Assembly: GCA_012034615.1 (NCBI GenBank)
Contig: JAAUPA010000010.1
Location: 1 to 42,857 of the forward strand
Length of the DNA stretch: 42,857 bases
From: Leptolyngbyaceae cyanobacterium CSU_1_4
Lineage (GTDB): Bacteria > Cyanobacteriota > Cyanobacteriia > Elainellales > Elainellaceae
Reading direction: 5' to 3'
Position 1 is the stretch's first letter; each line of letters opens with the position of its first letter. The notes under the pieces are model-generated. The model was not told the DNA's origin, did no database searches, and saw only the letters and a program-made list of their open reading frames with translations. This document shows positions 7,387 through 31,746 of the stretch, piece by piece. The translations under genes and the position numbers were made by a program.

Positions 7387-8863
7387 AGGTGGCAAGATTA
7401 TGTTGAGTCGTTTCAATGAAGGTCATTGTGTTGGCATTGGGAATCAAGTCAAACGCTTGCTGCAATTGCCGCAAACTCAAAGTCTGAGCTGCCAATTGCA
7501 CCGCCAAATAGGTAGCAACTTCTGCTTCTTTATCCTGGGTCGCCGCGACATAAAGCGCTTCGACCATGATGCGGGCAGCCGTGTCAGATTCAATGAGCTG
7601 TTTCATTTGTTGCCATAATTGCTGCCACTGTTCATTGGGCAGCACGTCCGCTTGCCAATCACAATGTAAAAAGGCGCGGGGCTTGCGGCGAAAACTCTCC
7701 ACCAAATGGCGATAATTAATACTGCGTCCTCGGCGAATTTTCTCACTGCCGTGGATATGAACTCGAACCAGTGCCAAGACTTCAGTTCGACCGACAAAAC
7801 CGATGAGTCTGTCATGGTAAAGGTGAATCGTCAGGCGTTGTCCTATCAGGCGTGATGGGACGCTGTAAATAATGCTGCGGATGTTGATGGTACTGTAGCA
7901 ACTGACTTTGACACTGAGAACTTCGTAGTCAGGTGAGCGATAGCGAGGTAGCGCTTGCAGCAAGGCTTTTTCAACTTCAAACTTTTGAGTTCGTTTAGCA
8001 TTTTGTTTGGCGACCACCTGCTCAATTAGTGCTTGATACTCTGAGACTGATGCAAAATCTAGGCTGCCCCGGCGGAATAAAGCTTGGCAGAGTTTGCGCT
8101 TAAAGTGCCCATGAGGTGACTCCACGCTCCCATTTTCATGGGCTACACCTTTGTTATTGTGAGTCGGGCGAAGGCGATAATGACTACAAACTTCGCTATA
8201 CATCTGGGTCAGTTTGGGATTGCGTCCTCCGACATTGCGATAAGCGGCACTCAAACTATCAGTGCGATGGATTTGAGGCACGCCGCCGCAAGCTGCTAGG
8301 GCATTCTGCAATCCTTGAGACAACCCGACAAAGCTTTCACCACCCTGGATCACTTGAATGTATTGCCAGCCACTGTAGGCTAGACGATAGTGATAGAGCA
8401 GGTGTTGAAACAGTTGACCTTGAAGAGTGACGGTGACACCTTTGAGATGAGTAAAATCCGATAACCCCATCTCGCCAGGTTCATGGCGAATCTTGAACAT
8501 AACTTCTTTGGGTTTGCCTTGTGAGGCTTTCCATCGTTCGACGCGCCGTTGCATTGTGCGTAAAACCCCTTCATATTTACCGGGATAAGTCTCCTGTAAA
8601 TATTCAAATAAAGTCATCGGTTCGAGGCGTGGCTCACGTTGGAGCATGGGGTCTAGCTCACTGAGCCAGACCTGTTCTAATGGGTCAGCCCGGGTTAACC
8701 AGTCATGCGGTTGCCCTCTTTGGGGCTGGTGCGTCCCGGTATCGATACGGCTGCCCGTGCGAACGGAGATGCCTGCTGTAGCTGCTGCGGTCGCTTGCTT
8801 GGCTCCAGAATCTCGTTTATTCATGTAGAGTTGATACTGTTGAATATTAATTTGGACGGGCAC
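7133..8863 (-). CDS. istA: IstA-like DDE transposase, IS21 family
   Basis: IstA is the DDE transposase of IS21 elements. The N-terminus (QYQLYMNKRDSGAKQATAAA, then GISVRTGSRI) is the HTH DNA-binding part. The catalytic core shows DFTHLKGV (first D, near residue 135), IHRTDSLSAAYRN (second D) and HENGSVESPHGHFKRKL (E). A GTG at 8863 is the likely start. The frame stays open for about 250 bases beyond the istB start, giving a Pro/Gln-rich tail (PEPQRPPQTPPPQPDE) that IstA proteins do not normally have. The natural stop near 7380 may have been lost by mutation or frameshift. The catalytic residues are intact. Confidence 0.8.
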   Translation of the reverse strand: MPVQINIQQYQLYMNKRDSGAKQATAAATAGISVRTGSRIDTGTHQPQRGQPHDWLTRADPLEQVWLSELDPMLQREPRLEPMTLFEYLQETYPGKYEGVLRTMQRRVERWKASQGKPKEVMFKIRHEPGEMGLSDFTHLKGVTVTLQGQLFQHLLYHYRLAYSGWQYIQVIQGGESFVGLSQGLQNALAACGGVPQIHRTDSLSAAYRNVGGRNPKLTQMYSEVCSHYRLRPTHNNKGVAHENGSVESPHGHFKRKLCQALFRRGSLDFASVSEYQALIEQVVAKQNAKRTQKFEVEKALLQALPRYRSPDYEVLSVKVSCYSTINIRSIIYSVPSRLIGQRLTIHLYHDRLIGFVGRTEVLALVRVHIHGSEKIRRGRSINYRHLVESFRRKPRAFLHCDWQADVLPNEQWQQLWQQMKQLIESDTAARIMVEALYVAATQDKEAEVATYLAVQLAAQTLSLRQLQQAFDLIPNANTMTFIETTQHNLATYDQLLTSACEQPLPEPQRPPQTPPPQPDESPVATTRTASNSGALVLCAILAGIVRGGKPTARSSPPQPRVERGTTALWKVLFQL

Positions 8864-19856: not shown

Positions 19857-22800
19857 CTAGTTCACCTTAAACTGACCAACGCTGGCTTGGAGCTGTTGCG
19901 CGGTTGCTAGTAGCTCTTGGAAAGAAGCTGAGATGTGGGTTGAGTCGGTTGAGTTTTTATTGGCGATCGCCGCCACATCCGACATGGCTTGGGTGACAAG
20001 CTGCGACTGCTGGGTCTGAACTTGGGTTGCTTGGGTAATTCCTTGCACCAGTTGGCTAATTTGCGCCGTTGCTGTCACAATTTCGTTGAGCTGCTGGCGG
20101 GTTTCGTTGACCAAGTTGGTGCCGCCCACAACCTGCTGAATACCCAGATCCATCGCTGTTGTTACCTCGACGGTTTCTGCCTGAATTTCTTGCACCAGTT
20201 TTTCAATTTCGCGGGTAGCTTCAGCAGATTGGCGAGAGAGCGATCGCACTTCATCCGCCACCACCGAGAAGCCTCGACCATATTCTCCGGCGCGGGTTGC
20301 CTCAATGGAAGCATTGAGCGCTAGAAGCTGGGTTTGGGTGGTGAAGTTGCTAATCAAACTCACCACTTTAGAGATTTTTTGGGAAGATTCGCTTAGGCGT
20401 TTAATCTTCTTACTCGTTTCCGCCACCGTTTCCCGAATCGCCATGATTCCATCTACCGTTTTGTTCATGGCAGTATCGCCCGCCTTCACCGTTTGGTTTG
20501 CCTGCTGGACGGCAGTTTCCACCTGTTTGGCGTTGGTAGCAACCGCCTGAGTGGAGTTAACCATTGATTCAATGCGTTCGATCGCCTGGGTCACTTGAAC
20601 AAACTGCTGTTGGGCTTCATGGGAAAGGGTGGCGATCGCCGTTTCACTGTTGCTAGAAGTCTCCGACACTTTAACAGCGGCTGATTGCACCTGCGTCACA
20701 ATTTTACGCAAGCTTTGAATCGTGTTGTTATAGGCATCAGCGATCGTGCCGACTGCATCTTCGCTGACTGGCACCCGCACGGTTAAATCTCCTGAAAGCA
20801 CAGGTCGTACTGCGGTCAGCATTTGAATTACCTGCTGTTGCAGTTTGTCGTTAGCTGATTTTTCCCGCGTTACCGATTGCGTTAACTGTTCAGATTGATT
20901 TCTCAGTTTTTCTAGGGAAAGGGTTTGGTTTAGAGCAAAGCCAAGCTGCAAGGCAATTTGGTTCAGCAACGTCACTTCTGATTCGTCCCATTTGCGCGTT
21001 CCGGAGTTTTGATAAGCTCCCAAAATTCCCCATAGCTTCCCTTCTACAAATACAGGAACCAGTACATAGGCTCTGGCTTGAAATTTCTCTAGAAGCTCGA
21101 CGTGGCAAGGGTTATGATTCGCCGTATAAATATCGTCTACCGCCAAGCTTTCCCGATTTCGATACCGCCCGCCCTCAGTGTCTTTGAGATAAGTATCCCG
21201 CACATTGGTGCCCACTTCACTGCCCACCAATCTTTCCCAACCCGTAGCCACCGATTCTGAAATAAAGGTGCCGCTCCAATCTGGTGAGAACTGATAGACC
21301 GCCACGCGATCGGCTTTTAGCAACTGTCGGACTTCTTGCGTCACCGTACTAAACACAGAGTGAATATCGAGTGATTCCCGCACAATGTCTAAAGACTGTC
21401 GAATACTTTCTGTGGCGTTAACCAGCGCTCGTTCTTGTTGCGCCTGCTTTTGAACTTTGCTCAAAAACTCGCCCTGCTGAATCCCAATTCCTAGTTGAGC
21501 GCCTAGTTGAGTCAAAAGGTTTTCTTCTGAGGCATCCCACTGGCGCGGGGCAGCATTTTGGTAAATTGCTAGCAGCCCCCAAAGCTGTGAACCAACCCAA
21601 ATAGGAGCAACCATATAGGCTTTGGCTTCCATCTGCTCCAAAATATTGCCGTAGCACTGAGAGTAGACGACTTGAGCAATATCGTGGACAACCAGCGTTT
21701 CTTTTTTGCGAAATTTGCCGCCCTGGTTTTCTTGAAGATAGATATCTTCCCAAACGAGTGGGCTATTAGATTCTAAAAACTTTGACCACCCCTTACCCAC
21801 GGCTTCAGCGAGAATCTCATTGTGCCAATGGGCGTTGAAGCGAGAAATAATCACGCGATCGCCCAGTAAAAACTGTCGAACCTGCTGCGCAATTTGTCCC
21901 AAGATAATATCTAAGCTCTGGCTCTGACGCACCATTTCAACGACAGATTGTCCAACCTTAGTAATAATTTGACCAAATTCTTTCTCACGGCTTGCCGCTT
22001 TAGTCAGTTGGTCAGCCTGCATTTTAACCCGCTGCACATATTCTGCTTGCCGCACCGCCATGCCCAACTGAGAGGCAATTTGCCCCATCAAATTGACTTC
22101 AGCCTCTTCCCAAATCCGCACTCCAGAATTTTGATAAGCTGCTAACAATCCCCAAAGTTCGTTCTTCTGAAAGATTGGCACAATGACATAAGCTCGAGCC
22201 TGAATTTTTTCTAAAAACTCGATGTAGCAGGGAGCGAACTCCAGGGCATAAATATCATTAACCTTGTTGTACGCATCCCCTTTTGCATAAGCTCCCCCCT
22301 GTATGTCTCGCAGGTAAGTATCTGTTTTAAGGCTGTTATCATTTTGCTGCTCTTGAATCAGAGAAATCCACCCAGCGGCAACAGACTCAGCCACAGTTTC
22401 ACCGCTCCAATCAGGGTTAAAGCGATAGATTGCCAGGCGATCGCACTTCAGCAATTGCCGGACTTCTTGAGTGGTTGATTTAAAGATTAGTGGTAAGTCA
22501 ACAGTTTGCCGAATCCGTTCAACAATCTTGCTGACTGTTTGTTCCCGCTTAACGGCAAGCCCTCTCTCTTCAGCTTGCTCGCGAACTTGGGTCAAATAAG
22601 TTGCCTGCTGCAAAGCTACGCCCAGAGAGCCGCTGAGACGAAGCATCAACGTCAATTCATCATCTTGCCAATGGCGCACCCCAGAGTTTTGATAAGCCGC
22701 TAACAATCCCCACAGCTTTGTCCCCTGAAAAATAGGCGTAATTAAACTCGCTCGGCATTGATATTTTTCTAAAACTTCTAGGTAACAAGGCGTGTAGCCC

Positions 22801-26360: not shown

Positions 26361-26750
26361 AATATTTAATTACCATTCAAAGCGGTACAACAATTAATAC
26401 AAACGTCAGCAGACAGACCCATTACATCGCTGCATAAAACTTCCCTATCTAGACAAGTTACCTAATTGCAAAGCAAAGAGAAATTCAATGTTTGCCATTA
26501 GTTCAGACTTGTTAATCTAGGCTTCAGGAACCTTAACTAATAGACTGCCCACTTCTTGAAATAAGCTAACCAAATGAAGAGACTTCTGTGAGAGAAAAAA
26601 TACGAAATCTAACGTTACAAAACTCAGCAATGTTAGCTCTATTTGAAACCTGGGAAGGATGTACATATCTCTGTTTTGAGAGAAATGCCTGCCGATTGAG
26701 AAAGGCATCTATCAATCCCCCAACAATCATTTTAAAATTAGGTGACTAAC
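26361..26750. promoter_or_regulatory. shared intergenic region between phototaxis operon and gas vesicle cluster
   Basis: About 390 bp separate the divergent starts of pixG and gvpA. The sequence is AT-rich. A minus-strand frame of 63 codons at 26517-26708 has no start signal or motif and I do not count it as a gene. AGGTGA seven bases before gvpA is its ribosome-binding site. Promoters of both operons must lie here, but I could not assign boxes with confidence. Confidence 0.5.
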
Positions 26751-26969
26751 ATGGCTGTCGAAAAAGTAAACTCTTCCTCTAGCTTGGCTGAAGTCGTCGA
26801 TCGCATTCTTGATAAAGGAATTGTCATTGACGCTTGGGTTCGGGTCTCTCTCGTCGGAATTGAGCTGCTAGCAATTGAAGCTCGGGTTGTAATTGCCTCG
26901 GTTGAAACCTACCTGAAGTATGCTGAGGCCGTGGGCCTAACCTCGCAAGCTGCTGTTCCTAATGCATAG
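26751..26969 (+). CDS. gvpA: gas vesicle structural protein GvpA
   Basis: This 72-residue protein is the main wall-forming protein of gas vesicles: [20 protein letters not shown] and [20 protein letters not shown] are the two helix-strand segments that make the ribs. The start is ATG 26751 ([15 protein letters not shown]) with AGGTGA upstream. A GTG three codons earlier is in frame but less likely. Only one gvpA copy is present, whereas many cyanobacteria have several. A hairpin follows the gene, which fits a high ratio of gvpA message to downstream genes. Confidence 0.97.
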
Positions 26970-27045: not shown

Positions 27046-28176
27046 GTGAGTTCTCTTAAAGCCTCTTGGCAAACACAAAAAAATCAGCGGCAGCAAGAAT
27101 TGCTACAACGGCAACAACAAGTCCGCAAATCTTTAAATAGATATCAACAAGAGCGTCAGGCAAAAGCTGCTGTATTGCGTCATGATCTCAACCTGTTTCA
27201 GCAATCTCTTCAGCAAGAAACTCAAGATTTTTTAATTGATGTTAGCCTCGATCGCCAACTGCGATCGGAGCAAGTCATTCATCAGCTTCATGCCTTTACT
27301 CAAGCCTTACAGCAGCAAACCGCCGATTTTTTAGAAGTCACTGCTGCCGATCGCTCTTTAATGTCTCAAGAGCTTACTCAAGACTTATCGGCATTTCATG
27401 CTGGACTGAATCATTCAGTGCAAGTTTTGCGAAAGAATCTACACGTCCAGATGGAACACCTCCACTCAGAGACTCAGGTTTTTCTAAAGAAGTGCCAAGC
27501 ACAACGCCAGCAGCAGCAACTGGATTTGATGCAAAGTTTGGCAATTTACATTGCGTCATTGCAAGAGCAAGTCCAAACCTATTTAGCAGAACTGGAGTTA
27601 GGACGGCAAGAACGAGGGCAACAGATCAGACAGATGTTGCAGGAAAGCCGCGATCGCCGTTTAACAGAAACAGCAGAACTATTCCAACAGTTCTCAGAGT
27701 TTCGCACTGAACTAAGATCGTATTGCGATCGCCTTCATGAAACCGTTTGGGGCAAATCTCAAGCCATTCAGCCCTTAGAATCTACGCTTCAAAAGCCCGC
27801 TATGCTGAGGAGCGATCGCGCCACAAAAGCAGTTTCTGCACCAGTGCCTGTTACTCAACCTGTTGCTCAACCCAGCAAACTATCTGCAACTCAAATCCTT
27901 AGCAACCCACCTTTAGTTACTGTAGCACCTATCAAAGCTGTTGCTGTTGCGCCACACCAACCTGTACCGTCTGCCTTACAGCAAGATGATGAGCTACTCG
28001 AGCAAAAGATTTATAGCTACATTAAGCAAATTGAGGGTGCCCGGCTGACTGAAATTCAGTCTGCTTTGGGTATTAATCGTTCACAGACGGTTGATAGTCT
28101 GCGCGCCTTAATTAAAAAAGGTTTGATTACACAGCGCGATCGCGTTTATTTAGCTCAAGAGGAAATTTCTCTGTGA
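27046..28176 (+). CDS. gvpC: gas vesicle outer-surface protein GvpC with C-terminal winged-helix domain
   Basis: GvpC binds the outside of the gas vesicle and stiffens it. The start is GTG 27046 with GGGAGGAAG upstream. Residues 1-235 are an all-helical, Gln-rich array of about 33-residue repeats (for example [20 protein letters not shown] and [20 protein letters not shown]). Residues about 240-310 are a Pro/Ala/Val linker. Residues about 317-376 are unusual: [20 protein letters not shown] and [20 protein letters not shown] look like a small winged helix. The same domain ends GvpN. The total of 376 residues is much longer than the roughly 190-residue Anabaena GvpC. The stop overlaps the gvpN start (GTGA). 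Confidence 0.85.
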
Positions 28177-29471
28177 CTACTGTTCTAAAAGCCAATCCCC
28201 GGCAATTCGTTAACACTCCTGCCATTCAGCGAGTCGCTACCCGTGCCTTGCGTTACCTGCAATCGGGGTATTCTGTGCATCTACGAGGACCTGCTGGCAC
28301 CGGAAAAACCACGTTGGCGCTGCATCTTGCTGACCTGCTGGCACGCCCTATCATGCTAATGTTTGGTGATGACGAGTTCAAAACCTCAGATTTAATTGGT
28401 AACCAAACGGGTTACACCCGTAAAAAAGTCGTTGATAACTTTATTCACAGCGTTGTTAAAGTTGAGGATGAACTGCGTCACAACTGGGTTGATTCTCGCC
28501 TAACTTTGGCTTGCCGAGAAGGTTTCACGCTGGTTTATGACGAATTCAATCGATCGCGCCCCGAAGTTAACAATGTTTTGCTCTCGGCGTTAGAAGAAAA
28601 ACTTTTGGTTCTGCCGCCCAACAAAGATCGATCGGAATATGTCCGAGTTAGTCCTCATTTTCGGGGCATTTTTACCTCCAATCCTGAAGAATACTGCGGG
28701 GTTCATTCTACCCAAGATGCTTTACTCGATCGCCTGATCACCATCAATATCCCTGAACCCGATGAACTAACGCAGCAAGAAATTGTGGTTCAAAAAACAG
28801 GGATTGATCGAGAAAGCGCCGTAGCAATTGTGCAAATCGTCAAAGCATTTCGCAAAAGAACAGCGAATGAAAGATCATCAGGCTTGCGATCGTGTTTGAT
28901 GATTGGCAAAGTTTGCCATGAACACGAAGTTATGGTGATGCCAGAAAACGCAGAGTTTCGAGATATTTGCCAAGATTTGCTGCTCTCTCGTACAGCCTTA
29001 CCCTTAGAGGAAGCCACTCATATTTTATGGGAAATCTTTAACGGGTTCATTGCCAACGACGTGCTTCAGGTTTCTATGGCGATCGCCCTTCATGATGATC
29101 TGGATGTACCCGTTCCTGAATTCAATGAGATTGCTCTCAGCGAAATAGTGCAATCGATTCCAGGCGATCGTCTGGCAATTTTCAATGACTTAATGAATCT
29201 AGACGACTCGCCCGAACTCAGCCTTAATTCTGGTGATCTCGATTCTGTTGAGGTCATAGACGAGATCTTGCTCGTTCCCTATCAACAGGAAATCTACGAA
29301 TATTTGCAGCAACAGCAGGAAGCGCGCCCGTTTGAAATTCAGTCTGCATTAGGGATTAAGCGATCGGACGTGGCAAACGCGCTGCAAGCTTTAACTGCTA
29401 AAGGGCTAACCATTCCTCAAAACAATTTCAAAAAGCAGTCATCGTACCGCATTCATACTTTAGAGGAATAA
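28173..29471 (+). CDS. gvpN: gas vesicle protein GvpN (AAA+ ATPase) with C-terminal winged-helix domain
   Basis: GvpN is a MoxR/CbbQ-like AAA+ ATPase needed for gas vesicle growth. Walker A is [15 protein letters not shown] (about residues 39-53), Walker B and following region is [20 protein letters not shown], and [20 protein letters not shown] is the sensor 1/arginine-finger region. The gene starts at GTG 28173, overlapping gvpC by four bases. At 432 residues it is longer than the ATPase core. The tail (about 368-432: [40 protein letters not shown]) is clearly homologous to the C-terminus of GvpC. Confidence 0.92.
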
Positions 29472-29477
29472 CTCACC

Positions 29478-29804
29478 ATGACTGCATCCCCCGCAGGTCG
29501 CGCTATTACAACGTCCACCCAAGGCTCTAGTTTGGCAGATGTGCTGGAGCGCGTGCTAGATAAAGGCATTGTCATTGCTGGAGATATTTCTGTTTCTGTG
29601 GGTTCCACCGAACTCCTGAGCATTCGGATTCGGTTGCTCATTTCATCAGTTGACAAGGCAAAAGAAATTGGGATTAACTGGTGGGAAAGTGATCCGTATC
29701 TCAGCAGTCAGTCGCAGCAAATGCTTGAAGCCAATCGTCAATTACAAGCAAGGATTGAGAGTTTAGAAGGTCAATTAAAAGTTCTTAGCGGTGAATCGGC
29801 ATGA
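29478..29804 (+). CDS. gvpJ: gas vesicle protein GvpJ
   Basis: This 108-residue GvpA-related protein has the core SSLADVLERVLDKGIVIAGD and ELLSIRIRLLISSVDKAKEI, followed by GINWWESDPYL, typical of GvpJ. The C-terminal 35 residues form a short coiled coil (NRQLQARIESLEGQLKVL). GvpJ is a minor component thought to act at the conical tips or in nucleation. It starts 6 bp after gvpN and overlaps the next small frame by four bases (ATGA). Confidence 0.92.
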   Translation: MTASPAGRAITTSTQGSSLADVLERVLDKGIVIAGDISVSVGSTELLSIRIRLLISSVDKAKEIGINWWESDPYLSSQSQQMLEANRQLQARIESLEGQLKVLSGESA

Positions 29805-30015: not shown

Positions 30016-30504
30016 ATGTCTCTGACAAATTCTCAAATTCAAGCGATGCCTGCGAGGGATTTTGAGGTATCCCAAATTGAGGCACCCCAAAAGAAAGATG
30101 CAGGGCTGGCTCCGCTGCTGCTAACGGTGGTGGAACTGGTGCGGCAATTGATGGAGGCACAGGTAATTCGGCGAATGGAGTCGGGTGATTTGAGCGAATC
30201 TGACTTAGAACGGGCGGCAGAAAGTGTGCGTAAGTTAGAGGAGCAGGTTATCAATCTGTGCAAAATATTTGAAATTGATCCGGCTGATCTCAATATTGAT
30301 CTGGGCGATATTGGCACCTTATTTCCTCAGTCTGGAGGCTACTATCCGGGCACTCATTCGGCAAATCCATCAATTCTAGAATTGCTCGATCGCCTCCTCA
30401 ATGTAGGAATTGTAGTGGAAGGAAATATTGATTTAGGGCTGGCTCAAATCAATTTAATTCATGCAAAGCTACGACTTGTATTAACTTCTCAGCCCATTGG
30501 CTAA
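30016..30504 (+). CDS. gvpK: gas vesicle protein GvpK
   Basis: This 162-residue protein has the GvpK signatures GLAPLLLTVVELVRQLMEAQ and VIRRMESGDLSESDLERAAE. A C-terminal GvpA-like segment follows (SILELLDRLLNVGIVVEGNI, LAQINLIHAKLRLVL). GvpK is required for assembly. The protein closely resembles cyanobacterial GvpK in length and sequence. The first 30 residues are variable. Confidence 0.92.
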   Translation: MSLTNSQIQAMPARDFEVSQIEAPQKKDAGLAPLLLTVVELVRQLMEAQVIRRMESGDLSESDLERAAESVRKLEEQVINLCKIFEIDPADLNIDLGDIGTLFPQSGGYYPGTHSANPSILELLDRLLNVGIVVEGNIDLGLAQINLIHAKLRLVLTSQPIG

Positions 30505-30596: not shown

Positions 30597-31331
30597 ATGG
30601 GATGCGGACTTTATTTATACGGTATTTTTCCAGCTACAGCGCTTCATAAAATAACGCTAGAGGGACTCGATTGCCAACCTGTTCAGTCCCATACCCTGAA
30701 CGACTTTACCTTTCTCTATTCTGAGGCGCAACAGAACAGATATTTAGCTAGCCGTCGTAATTTGCTAGGACATGAGCGGGTTCTGGAACAGGCAATGGAG
30801 CAGGGATATCGGACATTGTTACCGTTGCAGTTTGGGCTGATTGTGGAGGATTGGACGACGGTTGAAAGTCAGTTAATTAAAACTCAGAAGGAGAACTTGA
30901 AGAATCTTTTTTCTAAGTTGGAAGGGCGACGAGAAGTCAGCGTTAAGATTTTTTGGGAAGCCGATCGGGAGTTGGAAGATCTAATGCGGGAGAATGAGGG
31001 GTTGCGGACTGAGCGCGATCGCTTAGAAGGGCAGTCGCTGAGTATGGATCAGATTGTGAAAATTGGGCAGGCGATCGAGGCGGAAATGGTTGGACGAAAA
31101 CAGGATATTATTCAAGCCTTTCAAGAGACGTTAAACCCGTTGGCGATCGAACAGATTGAAAATGATTTGTTGACAGACAGCATGATTTATAACGCGGCTT
31201 ATTTGATTCCTTGGGAGGCAGAACCCGAGTTTAGTGAGCAGGTGGAAGCGTTGGATCTGCGGTTTGAGGAGCGTTTGCGGATTCGGTATAACAACTTTAC
31301 TGCGCCATTTAACTTTGCACAGTTGGTGTGA
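30597..31331 (+). CDS. gvpF: gas vesicle protein GvpF (GvpF/L family)
   Basis: This 244-residue member of the GvpF/L family begins GLYLYGIFPATALHKITLEG. It continues with LGHERVLEQAMEQGYRTLLP, LQFGLIVEDWTTVESQL and a coiled coil (ELEDLMRENEGLRTERDRLE). The C-terminal end DLRFEERLRIRYNNFTAPFN is a family hallmark. GvpF is an accessory protein that interacts with GvpA early in assembly. The ATG at 30597 is chosen, with a modest AGGTGA upstream. Only one F/L gene is present. Confidence 0.92.
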   Translation: MGCGLYLYGIFPATALHKITLEGLDCQPVQSHTLNDFTFLYSEAQQNRYLASRRNLLGHERVLEQAMEQGYRTLLPLQFGLIVEDWTTVESQLIKTQKENLKNLFSKLEGRREVSVKIFWEADRELEDLMRENEGLRTERDRLEGQSLSMDQIVKIGQAIEAEMVGRKQDIIQAFQETLNPLAIEQIENDLLTDSMIYNAAYLIPWEAEPEFSEQVEALDLRFEERLRIRYNNFTAPFNFAQLV

Positions 31332-31446
31332 GGGGACGTTATTGACGCAGATGGAAAGACTCTACCTCATCTCTTCTGAAGAAAAGGGACTTAGAAGGGT
31401 TTGCAGGGATTGATAGTCTTTGGTTTTTTATTCCTTGGGGGTTCTG

Positions 31447-31746
31447 ATGTTTTTTGATTTATTGACGGCACCTTTTACGGCTCCCCTGAGCGGGATTGCT
31501 TGGATTGGTGAAAAAATATTGGAGAGAGCCAGTACGGAACTGGATGAAACGGAAAACTTGAACAAGCGGCTGTTGTCGTTGCAACTGGCGTTTGATATGG
31601 GTGACATTTTGGAGGAAGAGTTTGAGGAGCAGGAAGAGGCGTTGCTGTTGGCAATTCAGGCGCTGGATGATGAGATGAGGGCGGCAGAGCGGGAGGCAGC
31701 AGAGCGGGAGGCAGCAGAGCAGGAGGCTGAAGAGCCGCAGGATTGA
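31447..31746 (+). CDS. gvpG: gas vesicle protein GvpG
   Basis: This 99-residue protein starts at ATG 31447 with GGGGG seven bases upstream, giving MFFDLLTAPFTAPLSGIAWI, the conserved GvpG N-terminus. A long acidic helix follows (LNKRLLSLQLAFDMGDILEE), and the tail is Glu/Ala-rich and repetitive (REAAEREAAEQEAEE). GvpG acts with GvpF and GvpA in assembly. It is the last gvp gene here. The gvpV and gvpW genes that follow gvpG in some cyanobacteria are absent from the window. Confidence 0.88.
   Translation: MFFDLLTAPFTAPLSGIAWIGEKILERASTELDETENLNKRLLSLQLAFDMGDILEEEFEEQEEALLLAIQALDDEMRAAEREAAEREAAEQEAEEPQD

Follow-up and report, generated by a model that had tools for sequence, protein, structure and literature searches.

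A winged-helix C-terminus common to the gas-vesicle proteins GvpC and GvpN in many mat-forming cyanobacteria

The gas-vesicle locus

The window, that is the whole stretch of 42,857 nucleotides of Leptolyngbyaceae cyanobacterium CSU_1_4 that was analysed, carries a gas-vesicle cluster of the cyanobacterial type with the gene order gvpA-C-N-J-K-F/L-G (Table 1). GvpN matches TIGR02640 with E=2e-118 (394.6 bits, over the equivalog cut-off of 266.8). Its core is MoxR-like, and CbbQ/NorQ are its nearest neighbours according to an AlphaFold2 (AF2) model and Foldseek. The 33-residue GvpC repeats of TIGR02641 match two stretches of the window GvpC at a borderline E=0.0035 (17.5 bits, under the cut-off of 18.8); gene position and homologues support the probable identity of this protein as GvpC. 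The overlap of the gvpC stop with the gvpN start likely couples the translation of the two genes. A GvpK with a GvpA-like domain, the form found in this cluster, has already been mentioned in the literature (PMC10903477).

Divergent from gvpA, on the minus strand between window positions 19857 and 26360, lies a chemotaxis/phototaxis-like set that encodes an MCP with five GAF domains, CheW, a CheY-like protein and a DUF4388-receiver protein. None of the other loci compared showed such a set next to gvp, save for DUF4388/receiver relatives in a few of them (L137, L037).

Table 1. Genes and protein features of the gas-vesicle cluster in the window
Feature	Residues	Position (nt)	Strand	Description and basis
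gvpA		26742..26969	+	major shell protein; PF00741 E=5.6e-17
gvpC	376 aa	27046..28176	+	alpha-helical repeat body, proline/alanine-rich linker, C-terminal winged helix-turn-helix (wHTH); identity from adjoining gvpA/gvpN, borderline TIGR02641 repeats, homologues 5' of gvpN in dozens of loci
wHTH tail of GvpC	310-370	27973..28155	+	AF2 core pLDDT >90; Pfam wHTH matches
elements of GvpC tail				H1 310-329, H2 334-341, H3 345-358, wing strands 361-364 and 367-370
recognition helix H3, GvpC tail	345-358	28078..28119	+	conservation table; MarR/ArsR control
gvpC stop/gvpN start overlap		28173..28176	+	4 nt, from ORF coordinates; same -3 spacing in many relatives
gvpN	432 aa	28173..29471	+	AAA+ ATPase of the MoxR type, followed by an acidic linker and a C-terminal wHTH
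AAA+ core of GvpN		28206..28991	+	TIGR02640 match
GvpN linker	~300-366	29070..29270	+	mostly low confidence; pLDDT <50 at 344-366
wHTH tail of GvpN	367-427	29271..29453	+	AF2 pLDDT ~95 at 371-410; Pfam wHTH matches
elements of GvpN tail				helices 371-381, 386-393, 397-409; wing 413-418 and 421-427
recognition helix H3, GvpN tail	397-409	29361..29399	+	S398 corresponds to S346 of GvpC
gvpJ		29478..29804	+	GvpA paralogue; PF00741; halo_gas_GvpJ under cut-off
gvpK		30016..30504	+	C-terminal GvpA-like domain; PF05121 and PF00741
gvpF/L		30597..31331	+	PF06386 E=9.1e-63
gvpG		31420..31746	+	PF05120 E=7.7e-22

Fold, homology and distribution of the two tails

Neither textbook GvpC nor textbook GvpN carries a domain of the kind found here, as the original prediction had it. 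AF2 models both tails as H1-H2-H3-beta-hairpin, i.e. the three helices and ensuing wing of a winged helix; pLDDT exceeds 90 in the core of the GvpC tail and is about 95 over most of GvpN residues 371-410. For the GvpC tail, Foldseek returns wHTH-containing proteins as structural neighbours (best E=1.6e-3), and a Pfam scan of the isolated tails returns almost only wHTH families. The commonest of these is TrmB, found in 11/18 GvpC tails and 25/26 GvpN tails. For the window pair, the isolated GvpC tail lies just above the TrmB cut-off of 25.6 (E=9.9e-6, 25.8 bits) and the GvpN tail below it (3.7e-5). The full proteins do not qualify as TrmB/MarR regulators, their TrmB scores being 21.1 and 23.7 bits versus the same Pfam cut-off. 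The nearest sequence relatives of the tails are DNA-binding domains (CodY, CooA, MarR).

The proposal that the two tails are homologous and winged-helix-like is borne out by these models and by the alignments. When whole GvpC is compared with whole GvpN by BLASTP, the single real match joins GvpC 315-360 to GvpN 363-412 (26/50 identical, E=1e-9), and a profile of 18 GvpC tails aligns with one of 26 GvpN tails over 59 columns (probability 99.8, E=1.5e-29). Likeness at the DNA level, claimed at the same time, holds in part. The 14-mer GAAATTCAGTCTGC occurs in exactly two copies in the window (28051-28064 and 29334-29347). However, the same codon is used at 9/23 identical residues where 8.3 are expected from local codon usage, so that the DNA similarity adds nothing beyond protein homology and the tails are paralogues of long standing rather than the product of recent copying. 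A recent duplication or gene conversion is out, given this codon identity, the nearly equal GvpC/GvpN tail identity within and between genomes (0.442 vs 0.430; permutation p=0.0046 for the small excess) and a single GvpC/GvpN split that is not rejected. When the GvpC tails are all forced onto one side of the tree, this constrained tree is in fact the more likely one (p-AU 0.757, from only 49 columns). The origin of the tails is thus compatible with one GvpC/GvpN split.

In a phylum sample of 386 genomes, 56 carry the 58 GvpN that score above the TIGR02640 cut-off. The tail is present in 27 of these 58 and in 18 GvpC of the same loci; a nineteenth GvpC tail was found in genome G278. To these were added 80 named loci, chosen for closeness to the GvpN of the window, so the sample leans towards its relatives. 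After dereplication the tails number 92 for GvpN and 81 for GvpC, and 70 genomes have both. The same tail is therefore found in other cyanobacterial gvp clusters, and the same small winged-helix C-terminus is present on GvpC and GvpN in many mat-forming cyanobacteria. Almost all tail-bearing ORFs other than GvpN are the gene directly 5' of gvpN, often with a 4-nt overlap. In some Nostocales a tailed gvpC lies some 5-6 kb 3' of gvpN; loci L037, L039, L040 and L137 have it there rather than between gvpA and gvpN. What looked in Nostocales like a further gene with the tail is, by sequence, this downstream gvpC. The linkers of other GvpN are acidic and measure 7-383 aa (median 58), those between the AAA+ core and the tail being very long in L131, L156 and L111 (maximum 383 aa).

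A profile of the domain finds only two matches in the genome of the window, gvpC and gvpN. Across 80 genomes it finds 45 places: 43 gvpC or gvpN, one decayed tail behind gvpN (G149) and one generic ORF of 87 aa (G109, E=3.6e-5), the sole non-gvp match. A further 26 genomes have one to three matches each. The domain is practically confined to gvpC and gvpN (44/45 places in the 80 genomes, the decayed tail counted). No tail was found in the non-cyanobacterial GvpN checked, those of the Halobacterium, Spartinivicinus and Octadecabacter plasmid loci. Genome G262 has two gvp loci (L055, L064), one with both tails and the other with the GvpN tail only.

Conservation, decay and the recognition face

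Both tails are under purifying selection. Pairwise Nei-Gojobori dN/dS, taken by tail group, is 0.045-0.073 for GvpC in three groups of 6-20 pairs; two smaller groups, of 2 pairs and 1 pair, give 0.05 and 0.26. For GvpN it spans 0.035-0.26 and is highest in Halomicronema and in the Nostocales without a GvpC tail (0.18-0.23 in the latter). Among GvpC tails R345 is conserved in 81/81, R366 in 78/78 aligned, Q347 in 78/81, D/E350 in 79/81 and D365 in 77/81. The conserved basic residues R345, R364 and R366 sit on the recognition helix and the wing. Position 346 is usually F or V. Serine, as in the window, is found there in only one other GvpC (L156), and GvpN also has S in both cases.

On the GvpN-core (locus) tree, the GvpC tail requires 5 changes and the GvpN tail about 16. 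Behind gvpN, loci L005, L006, L011 and L130 contain relics of the tail that are interrupted by stops or frame breaks. In Arthrospira sp. PCC 9108 (L149, about 7680-7880) a frame change severs gvpC from its wHTH tail, which also contains a stop codon. The tail has decayed in several Nostocales and in Arthrospira. Eleven loci have a GvpC tail but no intact GvpN tail, whereas many Nostocales, including Nostoc and Sphaerospermopsis, have a GvpN tail while a GvpC tail was not found in their genomes. That a GvpC tail is always paired with a GvpN tail seemed true among the first 58 GvpN and was refuted by the named genomes. In Planktothrix the long GvpC40 is present in all non-planktic strains and absent from the planktic ones, which have a shorter GvpC (PMC5259702). 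Taken with the relics, this hints that tail loss goes with planktonic life, but it is a lead only, since Nostoc, which is often not planktonic, also lacks the GvpC tail.

Positions 13 and 17 in general helix-turn-helix numbering usually face DNA bases. We take tail positions 346 and 350 to be their equivalents, exposure resting on the numbering rather than on coordinates. The tails were compared there with 24 MarR-type and 29 ArsR-type domains from ten of the same genomes, in partial alignments (about 18 MarR and 26 ArsR cover the site, with a few ArsR rows visibly misaligned). A hydrophobic residue occupies position 346 in 98% of GvpC tails and 74% of GvpN tails, versus 0% of MarR-type and 12% of ArsR-type domains. 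Position 350 is acidic in nearly all GvpC tails, whereas the controls tend to H, K or R. The small or polar plus basic residues that a DNA-binding regulator would show at the base-contact positions are therefore lacking at the family level, although the window pair itself has S at 346. Net charge was discarded as a test, since it does not discriminate between the tails and the control regulators. Upstream of gvpA in 58 tail-bearing loci, no inverted-repeat word is conserved beyond shuffles, a weak test; the enriched 8-mer is the cyanobacterial HIP1 repeat GCGATCGC, and nothing else stood out clearly.

Of the aligned columns, position 346 stands out most: here the two tails from one genome agree with a frequency of 0.56, as against 0.32 for random pairing (z=4.7, 0/3000 permutations). 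The second-best is the wing-tip column 364 (z=3.0). The F/F table at 346 gives a Fisher p=3e-6. This match is confounded by phylogeny, consisting mostly of one F group and one V group with too few informative independent pairs. In a whole-domain mirror-tree, the signal is gone once phylogeny is controlled for (partial r 0.015, 227/500 permutations as high), which leaves no mirror-tree support for direct tail-tail pairing. An apparent loss of the hydrophobic residue 346 in GvpN tails without a GvpC tail (9/22 vs 59/70) was also discarded, since these are mostly one clade and two-tailed Nostocales also have S.

Possible roles and relation to known systems

The tail is a real, old, conserved domain common to two gas-vesicle proteins. 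It was originally proposed to dock both proteins on a common partner, to bind nucleic acid as a cluster regulator, or to let GvpN recognise GvpC-coated vesicles. Docking on a common partner fits best. We tentatively propose that GvpC and GvpN each acquired an ancient cyanobacterial wHTH at the C-terminus, most simply by one old duplication, and that it serves as a docking module, tethered in either protein through a flexible linker. With the face formed by recognition helix and wing, both tails would bind the same partner surface, so that coat protein and AAA+ motor meet at one growing vesicle or assembly complex. We infer a protein ligand that the two tails share and, as its effect, a gathering of GvpN and GvpC where assembly takes place. 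Protein docking is favoured over DNA binding because the DNA-contact positions are hydrophobic and acidic, unlike those of MarR and ArsR, and because same-genome tails match there beyond chance. Such matching at 346 and 364 would fit two domains tracking one ligand. The window pair has S/S rather than F at 346, which counts against this reading.

Alternatively, the GvpN tail might bind the GvpC tail, wHTH to wHTH, and so recruit GvpN to GvpC-coated vesicles. The two tails occur together in 70 genomes, residues are matched at 346 and 364, and Halobacterium GvpN binds the C-terminus of GvpC (PMC9372576). However, whole-domain covariation does not exceed phylogeny, and each tail occurs alone: a conserved GvpC tail in the 11 loci, a GvpN tail in many Nostocales such as Nostoc and Sphaerospermopsis. 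Recognition of coated vesicles through both tails is therefore not required, and a common third partner is preferred over obligatory mutual docking, which we consider unlikely. Since these 11 GvpC tails keep R345 (11/11), F346 (11/11) and Q347 (10/11), the GvpC tail probably binds something besides the GvpN tail.

Nucleic-acid binding is possible but less favoured, and on balance rather doubtful. Here the tails would bind DNA or RNA, and unassembled GvpC and GvpN would regulate the cluster, for example by feedback on free coat protein where vesicles are made only at times. GvpC is an abundant coat protein of gas vesicles, which argues against such a role, as do the hydrophobic and acidic residues at the canonical base-contact positions and, weakly, the want of a conserved inverted repeat upstream of gvpA. 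Conversely, the sequence and fold neighbours of the tails (TrmB, MarR, CodY, CooA) are DNA-binding wHTH domains, the basic residues R345, R364 and R366 are conserved, and the confinement of GvpC40 to non-planktic Planktothrix is what a regulatory role might predict (PMC5259702). That the tails are a largely passive leftover of an old fusion, doing little in most lineages, is very improbable. The many changes of the GvpN tail on the locus tree, its higher dN/dS in Nostocales without a GvpC tail and the relics with stops would agree with this, but not the low dN/dS of the three larger GvpC groups or the invariance of R345 and R366.

Returning to the docking module, an extended form of it, which we put forward as speculation, is a dedicated gas-vesicle adaptor. 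Its two copies, on coat and motor, would tie the growth of the vesicle to its coating by GvpC by way of a single putative receptor common to both, and it would be dismantled when a lineage becomes permanently planktonic. That the tails are shared, near-confined to gvp and lost or decayed in several lineages points to an overlooked common docking or control step in gas-vesicle building. According to a recent review, bicones form without GvpN but neither turn into nor elongate as cylinders (PMC10903477). The common tail is a tangible starting point for finding where GvpN acts, and on what. Its absence from Halobacterium GvpN and its loss in several Nostocales may explain why it has gone unstudied. 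It also matters when a GvpC is chosen for engineered gas vesicles, since many natural GvpC carry this extra folded domain.

The winged-helix domains of MarR, TrmB, CodY and CooA share the fold of the tails and a weak sequence similarity. These are transcription regulators, whereas the tails sit on a coat protein and an AAA+ ATPase and mostly have F/V and D/E at the base-contact positions. RuvB, Orc1/Cdc6 and MCM are AAA+ proteins with an appended C-terminal wHTH, the same order of AAA+ core and wHTH as in GvpN. GvpN differs from them in being MoxR-type, near CbbQ/NorQ, and in the flexible linker that precedes its wHTH; the likeness does not imply that GvpN acts on DNA. In Halobacterium salinarum the C-terminal domain of GvpC binds GvpN and GvpO (PMC9372576), a likeness in that the GvpC C-terminus is a GvpN contact, but the plasmid gvpACNO stretch of this organism, unlike the window, has no match to the tail.

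The pairing had been thought undescribed, but it is partly anticipated in one genus, Planktothrix, and credit is due to Pancrace et al. 2017 (PMC5259702). These authors noted that, within the C-terminus of GvpC40 from benthic Planktothrix, a run of 28 aa has 64% identity with the GvpN of Planktothrix, and that the C-terminal 60 aa are common to GvpC40 and the GvpC of Geitlerinema sp. PCC 7407 (PMC5259702). Judged by the published description, this is very probably the tail described here; the window GvpC, with 376 aa and a GvpN-like C-terminus, is itself of the GvpC40 type (about 40 kDa). The titles and abstracts of the open-access papers searched hold no description of a winged-helix or helix-turn-helix domain on GvpN or other gas-vesicle proteins. 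The earlier account concerns a stretch of identity in one genus, without domain, fold, distribution, decay or mechanism (PMC5259702). What appears new here is the fold, the full domain, its breadth, its gas-vesicle specificity and its decay.
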